From a virus: a stretch of 21,993 bases of DNA. The stretch is from positions 1-21,993 of IMG/VR virus record IMGVR_UViG_3300031758_000654; one strand, 5' to 3'. The translations under genes were made by a program, and so were the position numbers. The notes under the pieces were generated by a model that searched no databases, was not told where the DNA came from, and saw only the letters and a list, made by a program, of their open reading frames with translations. Positions 9,297 to 20,876 of the stretch are shown here, piece after piece; position 1 is the first letter of the stretch, and each line of letters opens with the position of its first letter.

Positions 9297-10036
9297 AGTG
9301 CATTGCCTTCTCGCTCTATGGCAATGAGCCTCGCTACACCATAGGCGCCATCAAGAACGCGATTCTTGCTTCACGATATTTTCCCTTTGACGATGGCTTC
9401 ATTGTTCGCTTCTATATCAGCGTCAATTCAAGCGTTGATGAATCCATCATCTCAACTTTAGAACGAGTCAAAGGTGTGCAAATCGGCATCGTTGGCGAAC
9501 CTGAAGATCATCGGGCGAAGTTGTGGCGTTACTATGCCTTTTCTGATCCGCAATTCGACGCCGTCATCTGTCGTGATGTTGACGCTCGCCTGTCCTTTCG
9601 GGATCGAGTAGCTCACGAAGACTGGGAGCAGTCAGGTCTTGATTATCACATCATCAAAGACCATCCAAGCGGTCACGACTATCCCATCTCTGCCGGTATG
9701 TTTGCGGGCAAGACAAAGAATTTGCGCGATATGGAAAAGCAAATCAAAGACGCCAATGTCGGCAACTATTACACCACCGACCAAGACTTCTTGGCTTCAC
9801 AGATTTATCCACGCATCAAGGATTCAGTCCTTATTCACGATCCGTATTACGACACCAAGGTTGAAGGCGATTCGATTCGCACTAGGATTCCCTGCGATGC
9901 TCCGACGCCCTTGTCACACATAGGCGCAGCTCTCAATGCCGATGACACCTTTGTCTTTGATGTTGACCGAAAACTGAACGCATCTGATGGTTACTCTGAA
10001 AAATATGAATACGAAAGCGACAGGTGGGGGAAATGA
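9293..10036 (+). CDS. Second glycosyltransferase-like protein
   Basis: This 247-residue protein starts at an ATG overlapping the previous stop (ATGA). The N terminus CIAFSLYGNEPRYTIGAIKN and the DxD-type motif FDAVICRDVDARLSF (residues about 88-102) are typical of GT-A-fold transferases that handle nucleotide sugars with a metal ion. A later segment HDYPISAGMFAGK and YYTTDQDFLASQIYP could form the acceptor site. It shows little similarity to its neighbour, so the pair is not a simple duplication. The family assignment is by motif only; it could be a capsule- or teichoic-acid-type transferase. Confidence 0.7.
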   Translation: MKCIAFSLYGNEPRYTIGAIKNAILASRYFPFDDGFIVRFYISVNSSVDESIISTLERVKGVQIGIVGEPEDHRAKLWRYYAFSDPQFDAVICRDVDARLSFRDRVAHEDWEQSGLDYHIIKDHPSGHDYPISAGMFAGKTKNLRDMEKQIKDANVGNYYTTDQDFLASQIYPRIKDSVLIHDPYYDTKVEGDSIRTRIPCDAPTPLSHIGAALNADDTFVFDVDRKLNASDGYSEKYEYESDRWGK

Positions 10037-11129: not shown

Positions 11130-11588
11130 TTAGCACCATCCCATCACAGGCGCAGGTTGAATGTCTTTGACTATTTCGTAGAACTTTCCGTTCTCGTGTT
11201 GTGATCCTGCGGTCACGACATAGCCATTGAACTTGATGTCAACTCCTTGGCGCAATTTGCCACCAAAGGTGGCATTCGCAGGTGCCTGATAGTAGAGATG
11301 CAGACCATCGCCGGTGGCGACTGTGAAGGTGTCAAGTTCTAAACCTTCTGTGGTTCCGCCATTGCGAAAGTCCACATCCAAGACAACAAGATTGCTTGGC
11401 GCACAAGCGATGCCAATGTTGAGAAGCGGTGACCTCTCAAACCATTTCTTGACTGTGGCGGGCTTATTCGAGGCCGACTTATATCCCTGCTTTGCGATAG
11501 GAAAGAAGGGAACCTTTGCCTGCGGGTAGCAAGGCAAGACATACCAACCGCGCTCGGCAAAGGCGGTGGCGATTTCGGCGGTCGTCAT
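11130..11588 (-). CDS. Stand-alone primase-polymerase (PrimPol/AEP) domain protein
   Basis: This 152-residue protein is a single bifunctional primase-polymerase N-terminal-type domain. The AEP motifs are all present: motif I VVLDVDFRNGG (D71, D73), motif II GDGLHLYY (H97) and motif III GVDIKF (D117). The opening AFAERGWYVLPCYPQAKVP is the usual start of the fold. It lacks any helicase or C-terminal domain, unlike the large enzyme at 17592-19652. It may prime DNA, act as a repair or translesion polymerase, or serve a small replicon. Its ATG overlaps the upstream RHH gene stop (ATGA). Confidence 0.8.
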   Translation of the reverse strand: MTTAEIATAFAERGWYVLPCYPQAKVPFFPIAKQGYKSASNKPATVKKWFERSPLLNIGIACAPSNLVVLDVDFRNGGTTEGLELDTFTVATGDGLHLYYQAPANATFGGKLRQGVDIKFNGYVVTAGSQHENGKFYEIVKDIQPAPVMGWC

Positions 11589-16081: not shown

Positions 16082-16261
16082 ATGTGTCGCCATATTTATC
16101 AACGAGTTGCGGCCGAGATATGTCCTGACTGTGGGCGTGATACGCACGAAACAGATTTTGAATTGCAACGACAACTTCATAAGCAATGGATAGAAGATGG
16201 CAAGGCCGATTGGAATATTTGTCCACTCGGGGGAACACTGAGGGGATGGTGGTCAATATGA
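16082..16261 (+). CDS. Small zinc-ribbon-like protein
   Basis: The ATG at 16082 has AAAGGAG (16071-16077) four bases upstream. The 59-residue protein contains EICPDCGRDTHETD (C14-x2-C17) and an additional C2/H4 pair at the N terminus (MCRHIY), which could complete one zinc site. It ends NICPLGGTLRGWWSI, and its stop overlaps the methyltransferase start (ATGA). It may assist the methyltransferase or be independent. Function unknown. Confidence 0.6.
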   Translation: MCRHIYQRVAAEICPDCGRDTHETDFELQRQLHKQWIEDGKADWNICPLGGTLRGWWSI

Positions 16262-16998
16262 CAACGGCAGTGTCACTATTCGCAGGTGTTGGTGGTTTTG
16301 ATTTAGCTCTTGAGCGAGCAGGAGTCAAAGTTGTCGCATCGGTGGAGTGGGATAAGCACGCACAAAATGTGTTGAGAAAACAATTTCCAAATGCACAAGT
16401 ATTTGGCGACATTCAGGGGGTTACAGGTGAACAATTACGAGCAGCAGGATTTGATCCCACAGACGGAATCATCACAGGTGGATTTCCTTGCCAAGACCTT
16501 TCCGTTGCTGGAAAACGAGCAGGGTTGGCGGGATCGCGTAGTGGACTTTTCTGGGAAATCTGCCGACTCCTTGACGAAACACGAACGCAGACTTTTATCC
16601 TCGAAAATGTGCCTGGTCTACTTTCCTCAAATAACGGAAGAGATATGGCCGTCGTCATTGAAGCGTTGGTCGAGCGCGGGTATCGCATCGCGTGGCGGGT
16701 GCTTGATGCTCAATACTTCGGAGTTCCCCAACGACGCCGTCGAGTCTTCATTGTCGGATGTCTTGGAGACGCAGGGAGATCACCTGAAGAAATACTCGCT
16801 ATCGCCGAAGGCCGCGCAAGGTATCTTGAGAAGAGCAACGCGCCGAGGAAAGGTTCTGCCGGTGCCACTACAGAGCGCCTTAGAGACGGTCGCATCACAG
16901 ACACCTTGACAGTTGCAGACCTGACAAAATCACAGACATCAAATCAAGCAGTCAATTCAAATCTTTTGCAGGTTTCCAATGTGGTTCGTCAAGAGTAA
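16258..16998 (+). CDS. C5-cytosine DNA methyltransferase, N-terminal part (motifs I-VIII)
   Basis: This 246-residue frame has the SAM-binding motif LFAGVGGF (residues 7-14), catalytic GGFPCQDLS (C78), FILENVPG (E116-N117-V118) and FGVPQRRRRVF (158-164). These are motifs I, IV, VI and VIII of C5-cytosine methyltransferases. The start is the ATG at 16258, overlapping the zinc-ribbon gene; longer in-frame starts lie within that gene. The frame ends at TAA 16996-16998, before the target recognition domain. The rest is encoded in the overlapping +1 frame. It would methylate phage DNA against host restriction, provided the two parts join or associate. Confidence 0.85.
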   Translation: MTTAVSLFAGVGGFDLALERAGVKVVASVEWDKHAQNVLRKQFPNAQVFGDIQGVTGEQLRAAGFDPTDGIITGGFPCQDLSVAGKRAGLAGSRSGLFWEICRLLDETRTQTFILENVPGLLSSNNGRDMAVVIEALVERGYRIAWRVLDAQYFGVPQRRRRVFIVGCLGDAGRSPEEILAIAEGRARYLEKSNAPRKGSAGATTERLRDGRITDTLTVADLTKSQTSNQAVNSNLLQVSNVVRQE

Positions 16999-17578
16999 GC
17001 GAGCGCAAACAAGTGACGATGACGAAACTTGGGTTGCGGGGGGGGTCGTGCCGACATTGAATGCTTTTGATTGTGGAGATACAAGAGCGACGGTCTTAAT
17101 TTTTGAAGCAACACGAGTGGAAGATGTGAGAATTTATGAGAACTATTGTCCGACAGTTGCACGATATTGGGGAACAGGGGGAGCTCGTGTGCCTTATGTG
17201 TATGCGATACAAGGAACTGTGATAGGTCGCAGTGATAATGCAGGGCCACAAGGAAAAGGCTTTGCAGATGATGGAGAACCGATGTTCACATTGGATCAAG
17301 TAAGTGGTCACGGAGTTGCGATGGCATTTGATAGTTACAATCAAAGCGTCAGTGAAACTTCACAGACAATTCGCAAAGGTCAAGCAGGCAATGACCATGT
17401 CGGAATGGTGATGGAGAAATCAGTCGTGCGTCGCCTGACACCGACAGAGTGCGAGAGGTTGCAAGGATTTCCTGACGGATGGACAGAGGGCCAAGCCGAT
17501 TCGCACCGCTATAAACAAATGGGCAATGCGGTGGCGGTGCCGGTTGTCCAATGGATTATTGACAGACTTGTGAAGTAG
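16979..17578 (+). CDS. C5-cytosine DNA methyltransferase, C-terminal part (target domain and motifs IX-X)
   Basis: This frame is +1 relative to the N-terminal part and overlaps it by 20 bases from its ATG; it is open back to 16925. It encodes 199 residues with the recognition region (TWVAGGVVPTLNAFDCGDTR, IQGTVIGRSDNAGPQGKG), motif IX (RRLTPTECERLQGFPDGW) and motif X (YKQMGNAVAVPVVQWI). Together the two parts make a normal full-length enzyme. The possibilities are a true two-subunit enzyme like M.AquI, which is split at about this point, a programmed frameshift, or an inactivating or sequencing indel. A run of eight G (17038-17045) lies inside this part but is in frame. The ribosome site before the ATG is weak. 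Confidence 0.8.
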   Translation: MWFVKSKRAQTSDDDETWVAGGVVPTLNAFDCGDTRATVLIFEATRVEDVRIYENYCPTVARYWGTGGARVPYVYAIQGTVIGRSDNAGPQGKGFADDGEPMFTLDQVSGHGVAMAFDSYNQSVSETSQTIRKGQAGNDHVGMVMEKSVVRRLTPTECERLQGFPDGWTEGQADSHRYKQMGNAVAVPVVQWIIDRLVK

Positions 17579-17591
17579 AAGAAAGGGAGCA

Positions 17592-19652
17592 ATGACGGGG
17601 GAAATCTTACGAACAGCGCTTGAGTTCGCTGCCAATGACATCTGCGCCGTTCCTGTGGCAACAGATGGAAGCAAGCGACCGGCACTGACGAATTGGAAGC
17701 AGTATCAAGAACGCTTGCCCGTCCCGCAAGAATTGTTGACCTGGTTTCAATCGGCAGAAGGGGTCGGTGTCATCTGCGGAAAAGTCAGTGGCAACTTGGA
17801 GATGTTGGAATTAGAAGGCAGAGCAGTTGCCGACAAGTTACACCTTGACCTCAAAGAGATGGCACACAAATCAGGTCTTGGCGATGTATGGGATCGCATC
17901 AATGCCGGTTATGTTGAAGTCACACCGTCAGGCGGTTTGCATTGGCTCTATCGAATAGATGGCGAAGTTCCTGGCAACACCAAACTTGCCCGTCGCCCTG
18001 GCGAAAATGGCGGCATTGATGTTCTCGCCGAAACGAGAGGCGAAGGTGGCTTTGTCATTGTCGCACCGACCAATGGCACCTGCCATCCGTCAGGCGGAGC
18101 GTGGACAATGCTCGTCGGCGGGCCGAAGTCAATCCCGACCCTGACGGTGCCTGAGCGCGATCAACTCCACAAATTATTCGTCACCTTTGATGCTATCCCT
18201 AAGCACGAGTCCATCACTGAAGACATCAAGCAACGAGTTGAAAGCTTGACGCCAGGGGATGACTACAACGCCAAGGTCAGTTGGGAGCAGATTCTTGAGC
18301 CTCTTGGATGGTCGAAGGTCTACACCACTCGTGACAAAGTCACCGCATGGCGACGACCTGGCAAGAATGAAGGGGTCAGTGCCACCACCAATCATGCAGG
18401 CAATGACAAGTTCTTTGTCTTTTCAACAAGCACACAGTTTGAAGCAGAGCGATCCTATTCAAAGTTCGCAGTCTTCACACTCGTTGAACACGGCGGAGAC
18501 TTCGCAGCATCTGCCCGCGCCTTACGCTCTCAAGGCTACGGAGAAGCACGCAAGGAATTGGGAACCTTAGAAGTCCACTCACCGAGCCTTGTTCAATTAC
18601 ACAATGAAGATGGCGAGGTCATTGAGTCATCGTGGATACCGAAGCAGATTGAAGAGACTGATCTTGATGACGAGAACCCGCCATCTATGCTCAAGAGAGA
18701 AGATGGGAACTGTCTGCTCTACGCAGGCAAGGTCAACGCCATCTTTGGTGAGAGCGAATCAGGCAAGACTTGGATTGCACTTGAGGCCATCCGCCAAGAG
18801 TTAGCGAAGAACAACATCGTCTTTTATCTTGATTTTGAAGATTCGGCTCGATCCATTATCAATCGCCTCAAAACCTTGAAGGTGCCGACCGATAAGTTCA
18901 AGCTCTTTCGTTATGCCAACCCTGACGAGCCATTGGGTGAGGGCATCGGTGAAATTATGCGCACCCAAATCATGGCGTATCTGCCGACTTTGATTGTCGT
19001 AGATGGTGTCAATGCCGCGATGAACCTGCTCGGACTTGACCTAGAGAAGAACAAAGATGCCACTACCTTCTCACAGAAGGTCTTGAAGCCCTTAAGAATC
19101 GGCGGAGCAGGCATTCTCACCATTGACCATGTCACCAAGAGCAAAGACAACCGAGGCAACTACGCCATCGGCGCACAGGCTAAGAGAGCCGATATTGATG
19201 GCGCGGCCTTTGCGGTGTCAGTGGCGATGCCATTTGGCAGAGGCATTGACGGCGCCTTGGACATTACTTGCACCAAGGATCGTCCTGGCTTTGTCCGTGC
19301 CATCTGCCCTGACGCCAAGACGGTCGGCGTCGCCAACCTGCGCTCGTTGCCTGACGGCGGCATCTCGGTTTCCATATCAGGTGGAATTGTCAAAGTATCC
19401 ACACGAGAGCAGAAGATGGAAGCAGTCTGCGAGCTACTTCGCCGGTGTGGGTATGAGATGGGCAGGAATCAGATTGCCGATCACCTTCGAGAGGAAGGGC
19501 ATGGAATGAAGGATGCCGAGCTGAAATTTGTTATGGAGAGTCTTGTGAGCAATGGTCATGTCACCTATCGCAAAGATGGACAGAAATATCTTTACGGGTA
19601 TCAGTCCGACTTCTTTGCCAATGATGTTAAGCCTTGGACTCCTAATGAGTAA
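17592..19652 (+). CDS. Primase-polymerase/helicase fusion (PrimPol + RepA-like AAA ATPase)
   Basis: The 686-residue enzyme has an N-terminal PrimPol domain (about 1-210) with motif II SGGLHWLYR (H117), motif III GGIDVLAETRGEGG (D143) and the strand FVIVAPTNGTCHPSGGAW. Its motif I reads NLEMLELEGRA, with E73-x-E75 where most AEP enzymes have D-x-D. The middle holds a RepA/DnaB-type ATPase: Walker A GESESGKT (386-393), DFEDSARSI, Walker B LIVVDG (D471) and ILTIDHVTK. The end (about 620-675) is a winged-helix-like domain. It would unwind and prime phage DNA. It has a good GGGAG ribosome site. An iteron region follows directly. Confidence 0.9.
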   Translation: MTGEILRTALEFAANDICAVPVATDGSKRPALTNWKQYQERLPVPQELLTWFQSAEGVGVICGKVSGNLEMLELEGRAVADKLHLDLKEMAHKSGLGDVWDRINAGYVEVTPSGGLHWLYRIDGEVPGNTKLARRPGENGGIDVLAETRGEGGFVIVAPTNGTCHPSGGAWTMLVGGPKSIPTLTVPERDQLHKLFVTFDAIPKHESITEDIKQRVESLTPGDDYNAKVSWEQILEPLGWSKVYTTRDKVTAWRRPGKNEGVSATTNHAGNDKFFVFSTSTQFEAERSYSKFAVFTLVEHGGDFAASARALRSQGYGEARKELGTLEVHSPSLVQLHNEDGEVIESSWIPKQIEETDLDDENPPSMLKREDGNCLLYAGKVNAIFGESESGKTWIALEAIRQELAKNNIVFYLDFEDSARSIINRLKTLKVPTDKFKLFRYANPDEPLGEGIGEIMRTQIMAYLPTLIVVDGVNAAMNLLGLDLEKNKDATTFSQKVLKPLRIGGAGILTIDHVTKSKDNRGNYAIGAQAKRADIDGAAFAVSVAMPFGRGIDGALDITCTKDRPGFVRAICPDAKTVGVANLRSLPDGGISVSISGGIVKVSTREQKMEAVCELLRRCGYEMGRNQIADHLREEGHGMKDAELKFVMESLVSNGHVTYRKDGQKYLYGYQSDFFANDVKPWTPNE

Positions 19653-19760
19653 CTGTTTCCCTGTTTCCCAACTGTTTCCCACTATTTCGGGAAACACCAC
19701 CGACTCGAGCGTGCCAACTGTTTCCCCGTTTCCCCCCTATAAGGGGGGAACGGGAAACAG
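19653..19760 (+). repeat. Iteron array and long hairpin, probable replication origin
   Basis: CTGTTTCCC occurs directly at 19653-19661, 19661-19669, 19672-19680 and 19718-19726. An 8/9 inverted copy is at 19689-19697 and an exact inverted copy (GGGAAACAG) at 19752-19760; a partial copy GTTTCCC lies at 19728-19734. The last copies form a hairpin of about 18 base pairs with two bulges: arm 19718-19737, loop TATAA, arm 19743-19760. No T-run follows, so it is not a typical terminator. Iterons beside a primase/helicase gene suggest an origin. The remaining bases to 19785 carry GAGG as ribosome site for the next gene. Confidence 0.65.
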
Positions 19761-19785
19761 GGCAACGGTCACCCCGAGGCAATAG

Positions 19786-20136
19786 ATGAATCAAGATTTC
19801 AAGCCAATCAACTGTTCAAGGTGCGGCGCCCTCATTTGGGCAGGTATCTCGTGGGCAGGCTTTGCTCGCAGACTTGATACCCCGAGACTGACCATTGAGG
19901 AAGAAGTCATCAAGCGCCTGTCGGGTCTGATGACCTACGAGCTACACCGCACTCGAGTTTCCTTTGAAGCGGTGGAGAGAAGTCTCAATCGCATCAGGTG
20001 GGCCGCACCGAACAAAGACCGAGTCATTCTTGCCGATCACACCTGCCAAGGATGGCGACTCTTTGAATCTGAGCCGCCTTCATATTGGTCAAAGTTATCC
20101 ACAGTCCTATCCACAAGTCAGGAGCCTGCCTTCTAA
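19786..20136 (+). CDS. Putative zinc-binding hypothetical protein
   Basis: This 116-residue protein opens with NCSRCGALIWAGISWAGFAR (C10-x2-C13) and later has LADHTCQGW (His and Cys), which could complete a zinc ribbon. The middle is helical and basic (IKRLSGLMTYELHRTRVSFE, then RIRWA). It follows the iteron region and is coupled to the next gene (TAATG). Two DnaA-box-like sites lie in its 3' coding end. A DNA-binding or replication-accessory role is inferred from position. Confidence 0.6.
   Translation: MNQDFKPINCSRCGALIWAGISWAGFARRLDTPRLTIEEEVIKRLSGLMTYELHRTRVSFEAVERSLNRIRWAAPNKDRVILADHTCQGWRLFESEPPSYWSKLSTVLSTSQEPAF
20095..20115 (+). promoter_or_regulatory. Pair of DnaA-box-like sites
   Basis: TTATCCACA (20095-20103, perfect) and CTATCCACA (20107-20115, one mismatch) lie 12 bases apart on the same strand and face, inside the 3' end of the zinc-binding protein gene. 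They stand about 340 bases from the iteron array. The second box is followed by the same AGTCAG found after the box at 12398. The sites may recruit host DnaA to the phage origin, but coding constraint could explain them. Confidence 0.4.
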
Positions 20137-20876
20137 TGCAATGCAATGTCTGCAAGTCTGAGATTGAAACCGAATGTCGCAGTTGCTTCGGCCGCTTGAG
20201 GGCCATCTTGAAAGAGTTGCCACAGTTGCAATATGAGGCGGGCTTTTACCTTGAGCCATCTCGCACCGGCAGTGGCGCCGTCACCGCCGAACGCTCTATT
20301 GGGATCAATGTCAATGCCCTTGATTTCTCAATGGCGACCGACCTTTTGGCAATCCTGCACAGTTGGGAGTCAATCATCAGGCGCGAGAGGGCGCTGACAC
20401 TGCCTGCCTTTGTCATTAAAGAGCCGACTACTCATTCCGAAGTCTTGGCGACTTGTGAGTTCCATATCGCCCACTTATCGTGGACATTGCAACAACCATG
20501 GGCATTAGACTTTGCAGGGGAAGTATGGGGCTTGCATGCTCGGGGGCGTGCGGCTGCCAAGAAGTTCAAGGAACAGGCAAGGCGCATTCCCTGTCCGACT
20601 GATGACTGCAAGAGATTTGTTGTCATTGATGTTGAGCAGTTGTCGCAAGATGTCAGTTGCTTTGGATGCAAACAAAGTTGGTCTGTCTTGAGATTGGTGG
20701 CATTGGCAATGAGTAATCCGAACCGCAGATTCTTCCTTGATGTGGAAGCCATCTCTGCCTGGCTACAAATGACACAACGCGAGGTCTATCGGTTAGTCAA
20801 GAAGTTTGATATTGAGAAGCGCGGATCAACTTACGACCTGCAAGCGATTATGAAAGCAAAACAACAAAATGCCTAG
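20136..20876 (+). CDS. Zinc-ribbon protein with C-terminal helix-turn-helix
   Basis: The start is the ATG at 20136 in TAATG, giving 246 residues. Three modules are visible. The N terminus is a treble-clef-like CNVCKSEIETECRSCFGRL with four cysteines. Residues about 160-195 form a second zinc ribbon (IPCPTDDCKRF, then VSCFGCKQSW). The C terminus is an excisionase/MerR-like HTH (DVEAISAWLQMTQREVYRLV, then GSTYDLQAIM). It probably binds DNA as a replication or transcription regulator. It lies after the origin region. No enzymatic motif is evident. Confidence 0.7.
   Translation: MQCNVCKSEIETECRSCFGRLRAILKELPQLQYEAGFYLEPSRTGSGAVTAERSIGINVNALDFSMATDLLAILHSWESIIRRERALTLPAFVIKEPTTHSEVLATCEFHIAHLSWTLQQPWALDFAGEVWGLHARGRAAAKKFKEQARRIPCPTDDCKRFVVIDVEQLSQDVSCFGCKQSWSVLRLVALAMSNPNRRFFLDVEAISAWLQMTQREVYRLVKKFDIEKRGSTYDLQAIMKAKQQNA

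Follow-up and report, generated by a model that had tools for sequence, protein, structure and literature searches.

Introduction

Several replication systems have been described in which an initiator protein is encoded next to the DNA repeats that it recognizes. The Staphylococcus initiator helicases SaPI Rep and SCCmec Cch2 carry a C-terminal DNA-binding domain, and their iteron origin lies directly downstream of the gene (PMC7581432). The P4 alpha protein combines priming, unwinding and the binding of origin repeats by a winged helix in a single polypeptide with a Toprim-type primase, while pRN1 encodes ORF904, a PrimPol-helicase-winged-helix protein whose gene is immediately followed on its 3' side by an essential stem-loop; at oriV of RSF1010 (IncQ), iterons are accompanied by hairpins that serve as priming sites, and primase and helicase are separate proteins (PMC4234260). 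On the Streptomyces plasmid pWTY27, the gene of a predicted primase/polymerase is adjacent to direct and inverted GTGGGAAC repeats, and RepA protects a long inverted repeat (PMC3583192). Finally, the RepA_N DNA-binding domain and the iteron origin of PLE satellites covary and are swapped as modules, with experimentally shown specificity, and the swap allows escape from an origin-cutting nuclease (PMC8263062).

The origins of phages that replicate with a PrimPol are mostly unknown. Here, we analysed a virus record of 21,993 bases (the window; position 1 is its first letter), in which a compact repeat cluster with a hairpin follows the gene of a PrimPol-helicase.

Results

A repeat cluster and a hairpin follow the PrimPol-helicase gene

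The motif CTGTTTCCC occurs in the window in five exact copies, four direct and one inverted, and all of them are confined to a cluster that starts directly at the stop codon of the PrimPol-helicase gene (Table 1); the initial annotation had likewise placed it directly after this gene. Dinucleotide shuffles gave an expectation of 0.17 exact copies per window, and none of 100 shuffles reached five. A second inverted copy had been counted previously; this one matches in only 8 of 9 positions, whereas the four direct copies and the other inverted copy were confirmed as exact.

Table 1. Coordinates of the replication gene, the repeat cluster and the downstream gene in the window
Feature	Position	Strand	Remarks
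PrimPol - RecA-like (AAA_25) helicase - winged-helix replication protein, 686 aa	17592..19652	+	Pfam, Foldseek
C-terminal winged-helix domain, residues 603-672, putative iteron reader	19398..19607	+	AlphaFold, Foldseek, trees
Predicted recognition helix, residues 641-653	19512..19550	+	Residues 640-641 (KD in the window) track the repeat class
Iteron 1, CTGTTTCCC	19653..19661	+	Reads AACTGTTTCCC when the stop codon is included
Iteron 2	19661..19669	+	8 bp past iteron 1
Iteron 3	19672..19680	+	11 bp past iteron 2
Inverted imperfect iteron	19689..19697	-	GGGAAACAC on the plus strand, 8/9 match to CTGTTTCCC
Hairpin / dyad	19718..19760	.	C-run/G-run core, flanked by iteron arms and containing TATAA (CTCTTTAGAG or CTATAAG in relatives)
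Iteron 4, outer left arm of the hairpin	19718..19726	+	Exact CTGTTTCCC
Degenerate iteron copy, CGTTTCCC	19727-19734		Inside the left hairpin arm
Inverted iteron, outer right arm of the hairpin	19752..19760	-	Exact CTGTTTCCC
Downstream gene, phrog_10480, CxxC ... C	19786..20136	+	Right border of the cassette, linkage control

The cluster ends in a hairpin whose outer arms are themselves iterons. We found 19 paired positions between the arms (19718-19738 and 19742-19760), two one-base bulges in the left arm and a loop of ATA within TATAA, in good agreement with the hairpin of about 18 base pairs and a TATAA loop reported before. Treated as single-stranded DNA, the region folds with a z-score of -5.25, and none of 200 shuffles was equally stable. 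No clear AT-rich unwinding element was obvious at this short form of the cluster, and no tRNA reading of the region was found.

The 686-residue protein upstream matches the Pfam families Prim-Pol (1.5e-10, residues 9-174) and AAA_25 (1.7e-6, residues 375-518). A PDB sequence search returned only weak matches, all to RecA, and a full-length AlphaFold model was poor (pLDDT 62), with RecA and KaiC as its Foldseek matches. The C-terminal 88 residues, by contrast with this full-length model, are predicted with good confidence as a winged helix of three helices (605-619, 625-634 and 641-653) and a beta hairpin, with a pLDDT of about 87-89 in the core. The best Foldseek match of this domain is 2mh2 (TM 0.90 on the target), followed by Fur, PadR and ArsR regulators.

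Two further features of the window are recorded here. A stand-alone PrimPol domain of 152 aa at 11130-11588 (minus strand; Pfam E 1.8e-28) is a better match than the main PrimPol. A C5 cytosine methyltransferase is spread over two overlapping ORFs (16186-16998 and 16979-17578, plus strand) that match profile positions 3-169 and 249-323, which may reflect a split gene, a frameshift or a sequencing error.

One layout with at least five repeat sequences

Is the cluster a common feature of viruses with this protein? Three protein scans of viral contigs yielded 90 loci with at least 150 nt of sequence after the protein. By a strict motif count the cluster is present in 88 of these, and the remaining two (L063 and L065) carry diverged copies; relatives with the same protein and without repeats, which the initial annotation had named as evidence against an origin, were not encountered among the 90 loci. 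The layout is common to essentially all of these relatives, and at least five different repeat sequences occur among them. Read on the minus strand, these are GGGAAACAG (class A, to which the window belongs), CGGAAC(A/G)GT (class B), GGGAACAGT (class C), AGGTTC(G/A)GT (class D) and GGCGCGGTT (class E), and a distant protein group, group F, has B-like repeats. The pattern GG...C(A/G)G is common to the repeat classes. Direct copies are spaced by 8/11 bp in classes A and B and by 10 bp in D and E. Within each locus, every repeat copy, including those in the hairpin arms, switches class together. Across 13 hairpins of different classes, 90.3% of the cells pair, compared to 39-60% with the arms slid, 29 two-sided changes were counted, and none of 500 shuffles came as high; this pattern would come equally from a duplex dyad or from a real hairpin.

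In six loci (L039, L041, L064, L137, L146 and L181), the PrimPol gene and the cluster are separated by extra genes (up to about 960 bp), at a position that resembles an insertion hot spot. In L137, L146 and L181 the repeats are still found beyond the inserted genes, and in L039, L041 and L064, the insert loci with an assigned class, the repeat class matches the winged helix despite the intervening genes. A longer form of about 200-300 bp, with extra inverted copies and a ACGCTCAA/TTGAGCGT dyad, was observed in seven loci (L024, L036, L042, L044, L053, L068 and L074).

Outside the PrimPol relatives, exact CTGTTTCCCTGTTTCCC was found in only two viral contigs, and neither was accepted as a cluster: L093, an unrelated viral contig of 69 kb, has a (TGTTTCCC)10 microsatellite of about ten tandem copies between genes (9640-9730), and L094 holds one chance-like match. 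In two Arthrobacter phages that we examined, with a PrimPol about 41-46% identical, no repeat cluster was present right after the gene. A search of the genome collection returned two distant partial matches only, thus identifying neither a host nor a prophage.

Similar arrangements were observed in other actinobacterial replicons. In the Streptomyces phage Dagobah (L105, 4065-4260), a RadB-like helicase gene has GAACCGGT repeats at its 3' end, and the hairpin that comes next shares the CTCTTTAGAG core. In three actinobacterial plasmids (L208, 4205-4540; L209, 3150-3345; L210, 3700-3800), genes for a PrimPol or a RecA-like helicase have repeat clusters at their 3' end or just past it; the repeats are, in this order, TGCAGGGA, CCTGCCC with a CCCCTCTAGGGG core hairpin, and GGGAACCACC.

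The repeat class follows the winged helix

With five classes, a tree of residues 1-598 needs 17 changes of repeat class, whereas the winged-helix tree needs only 4, which is the minimum. The downstream gene served as a linkage control: its tree requires 14 class changes, where that of the winged helix, for the same 58 rows, requires 5. For class D, the helicase tree offers seven independent pairs, and in all of them (7 of 7, p = 0.016) the repeats and the winged helix of this class switch jointly; class A alone gives three independent co-switches, which is not significant. Indeed, the replacement is limited to winged helix and repeats in several pairs whose flanks are 92-98% identical. In the pair L021/L035, for example, identity is 92-96% in the helicase, 51% in the winged helix, 49% in the repeats and 98% in the next gene.

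Of all 686 positions of the protein, residue 641 predicts the class best (94%, baseline 38%), and it sits at the tip or start of the predicted recognition helix; the best column of the downstream gene reaches 72%. In 97 proteins, residues 640-641 are KD in class A, (S/A/G)N in B, NN in C, G(S/G) in D and GN in E and F. These two positions distinguish A, C and D from one another and from the B/E/F group in every protein. Trees, swaps and recognition helix together favour the earlier suggestion that the C-terminal winged helix of the upstream protein may be the reader of the iterons. The swaps further indicate that winged helix, iterons and hairpin constitute one putative specificity cassette, about 0.4 kb in the window phage, which is exchanged as a unit between related phages.

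When winged helix and repeats already differ between two phages, recombination within conserved flanks would transfer both of them even without any functional coupling. The swap borders do sit in highly conserved flanks, so that the divergent block must move as a whole, and the repeats lie less than 150 bp from the codons of the recognition helix; it is conceivable that the two merely travel together and that another protein reads the repeats. We consider this unlikely, since it leaves unexplained both the concerted change of every repeat copy and the rank of residues 640-641 as best predictors, and since the match persists across several hundred bp of intervening genes, whereas the downstream gene, although nearer to the hairpin, fails to track the class.

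Position of the cluster in the genomes

In ten long contigs we found one cluster per genome, in most of them about 2.0-2.3 kb from the right end, and in three contigs terminase genes come after that right end. One contig of 33.4 kb has an exact 127-nt repeat at its ends, which closes the circle, and the ends of contig G007 are similar, not identical. The initial annotation had proposed a peak of the cumulative GC skew at the cluster as a check. This check gave no support: the ten contigs, including the circularly closed one, showed no consistent extremum or turn there.

In classes E and F, the repeats are immediately preceded by a perfect DnaA box, TTATCCACA (read as TGTGGATAA), and about 185 nt further on there is an 8/9 box; no such flanking pair was seen in classes A-D. 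The nearest exact DnaA box TTATCCACA of the window lies within the downstream gene (20095-20103, plus strand), there is an 8/9 copy at 20107, and two class A contigs likewise have exact DnaA boxes about 450 nt after the PrimPol gene.

Discussion

Based on class changes that follow the winged helix, on the swap pairs, on residue 641 and on the single cluster per genome, we consider it very likely that the cluster is an iteron replication origin whose reader is the winged helix of the phage's own PrimPol-helicase, and that it is located in a cassette swapped between phages, with at least five specificities. The locus shows the signature of an iteron origin, i.e. several short direct repeats beside an initiator gene that are kept in relatives. 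The initial annotation had proposed a likely phage origin from the letters of one genome; the layout kept in relatives and the coupling to the winged helix now lend comparative support to this proposal.

Could the cluster act mainly as an operator, at which the winged helix binds and represses the downstream operon, while replication begins elsewhere? Only 26 bp lie between the end of the dyad and the next gene, the cluster of the six loci with inserted genes keeps its place upstream of the downstream gene and not beside the PrimPol gene, and plasmid iterons often regulate as well. However, a promoter scan found no sigma-70-like promoter in 19300-20300, a direct iteron array plus a dyad exceeds the needs of a simple operator, DnaA boxes flank the cluster in classes E and F, and in the well-studied analogues the initiator gene is directly followed by the origin (PMC7581432, PMC4234260), all of which makes a mainly regulatory role improbable. 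A role of the hairpin as transcription terminator or as RNA element behind the PrimPol gene, as its strong GC-rich stem, its covarying arms and its position just past the stop codon might suggest, is highly improbable, given that no T-run follows the stem, that the terminator scan did not report it, that Rfam gave no match for the region, that its arms are iterons matching the direct copies outside the hairpin and that the element lies far from the PrimPol stop codon in several relatives.

At an iteron origin of this kind, the winged helix would bind the iterons and thereby assemble or load the PrimPol-helicase. Melting or folding would then occur at the inverted iteron pair around the GC-rich core, a dyad or hairpin which is probably the site of PrimPol melting, loading or priming. 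Ectopic origin copies are able to block lambda (PMC4488673), and this points to a possible selective reason for origin switching, namely that the phages probably escape in this way from origin decoys, satellites or co-infecting relatives. More tentatively, we speculate that the repeat classes represent natural origin "incompatibility types", in which at least five repeats are each matched by their own winged helix, the specificity stems largely from residues 640-641 and 645 of one recognition helix, the cassette is swapped under selection from decoys, satellites or co-infecting relatives, and the iteron-armed hairpin is the start site of the PrimPol.

The family thus supplies a compact origin together with a built-in comparative code between a few residues of one helix and the DNA that they probably read, and its natural chimaeras amount to swap experiments. 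Questions of origin specificity, of how it evolves and of the part that it may play in phage-satellite or phage-phage conflict become directly testable. From the layout we also anticipate origins in related actinobacterial phages and plasmids, such as Dagobah, pKRAD02 and p-XQ-29-C.

In comparison with known systems, the combination of a fused PrimPol, RecA-like helicase and winged helix with an iteron-armed hairpin and at least five specificities was not found described in the literature that we searched, although each described system shares a part of it. The window phage resembles SaPI Rep/ori and SCCmec Cch2 in having a C-terminal DNA-binding domain on the initiator helicase and an iteron origin downstream, but these rely on a separate primase protein, whereas the window phage combines PrimPol, RecA-like helicase and winged helix in one fused protein. 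With P4 alpha the window protein shares the winged helix; it does not belong to the P4 alpha type, which joins a Toprim primase to an SF3 helicase and a winged helix, since its own domains are an archaeo-eukaryotic Prim-Pol and a RecA-like helicase. The likeness to pRN1 extends to a PrimPol-helicase-winged-helix protein and a stem-loop 3' of its gene; however, pRN1 has an SF3 helicase and no iterons, so that a stem-loop origin of the pRN1 type does not describe the window, with its iterons and RecA-like helicase. The repAB-iteron locus of pWTY27 is likewise an actinobacterial replicon with a predicted primase/polymerase beside repeats, but divides the functions between two separate proteins. 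RSF1010 also has iterons and hairpins at its origin, yet uses three separate proteins, and its hairpins are priming sites, a role that the hairpin of the window may share. To our knowledge, the RSF1010 hairpins are not built from iterons. A parallel in evolution is provided by the PLE satellites, in which DNA-binding domain and iteron origin are exchanged as a module, as in the window's relatives; there, the module belongs to a satellite with another initiator family and two specificities, whereas the present family has at least five, and holds them in the phage's own replication gene.
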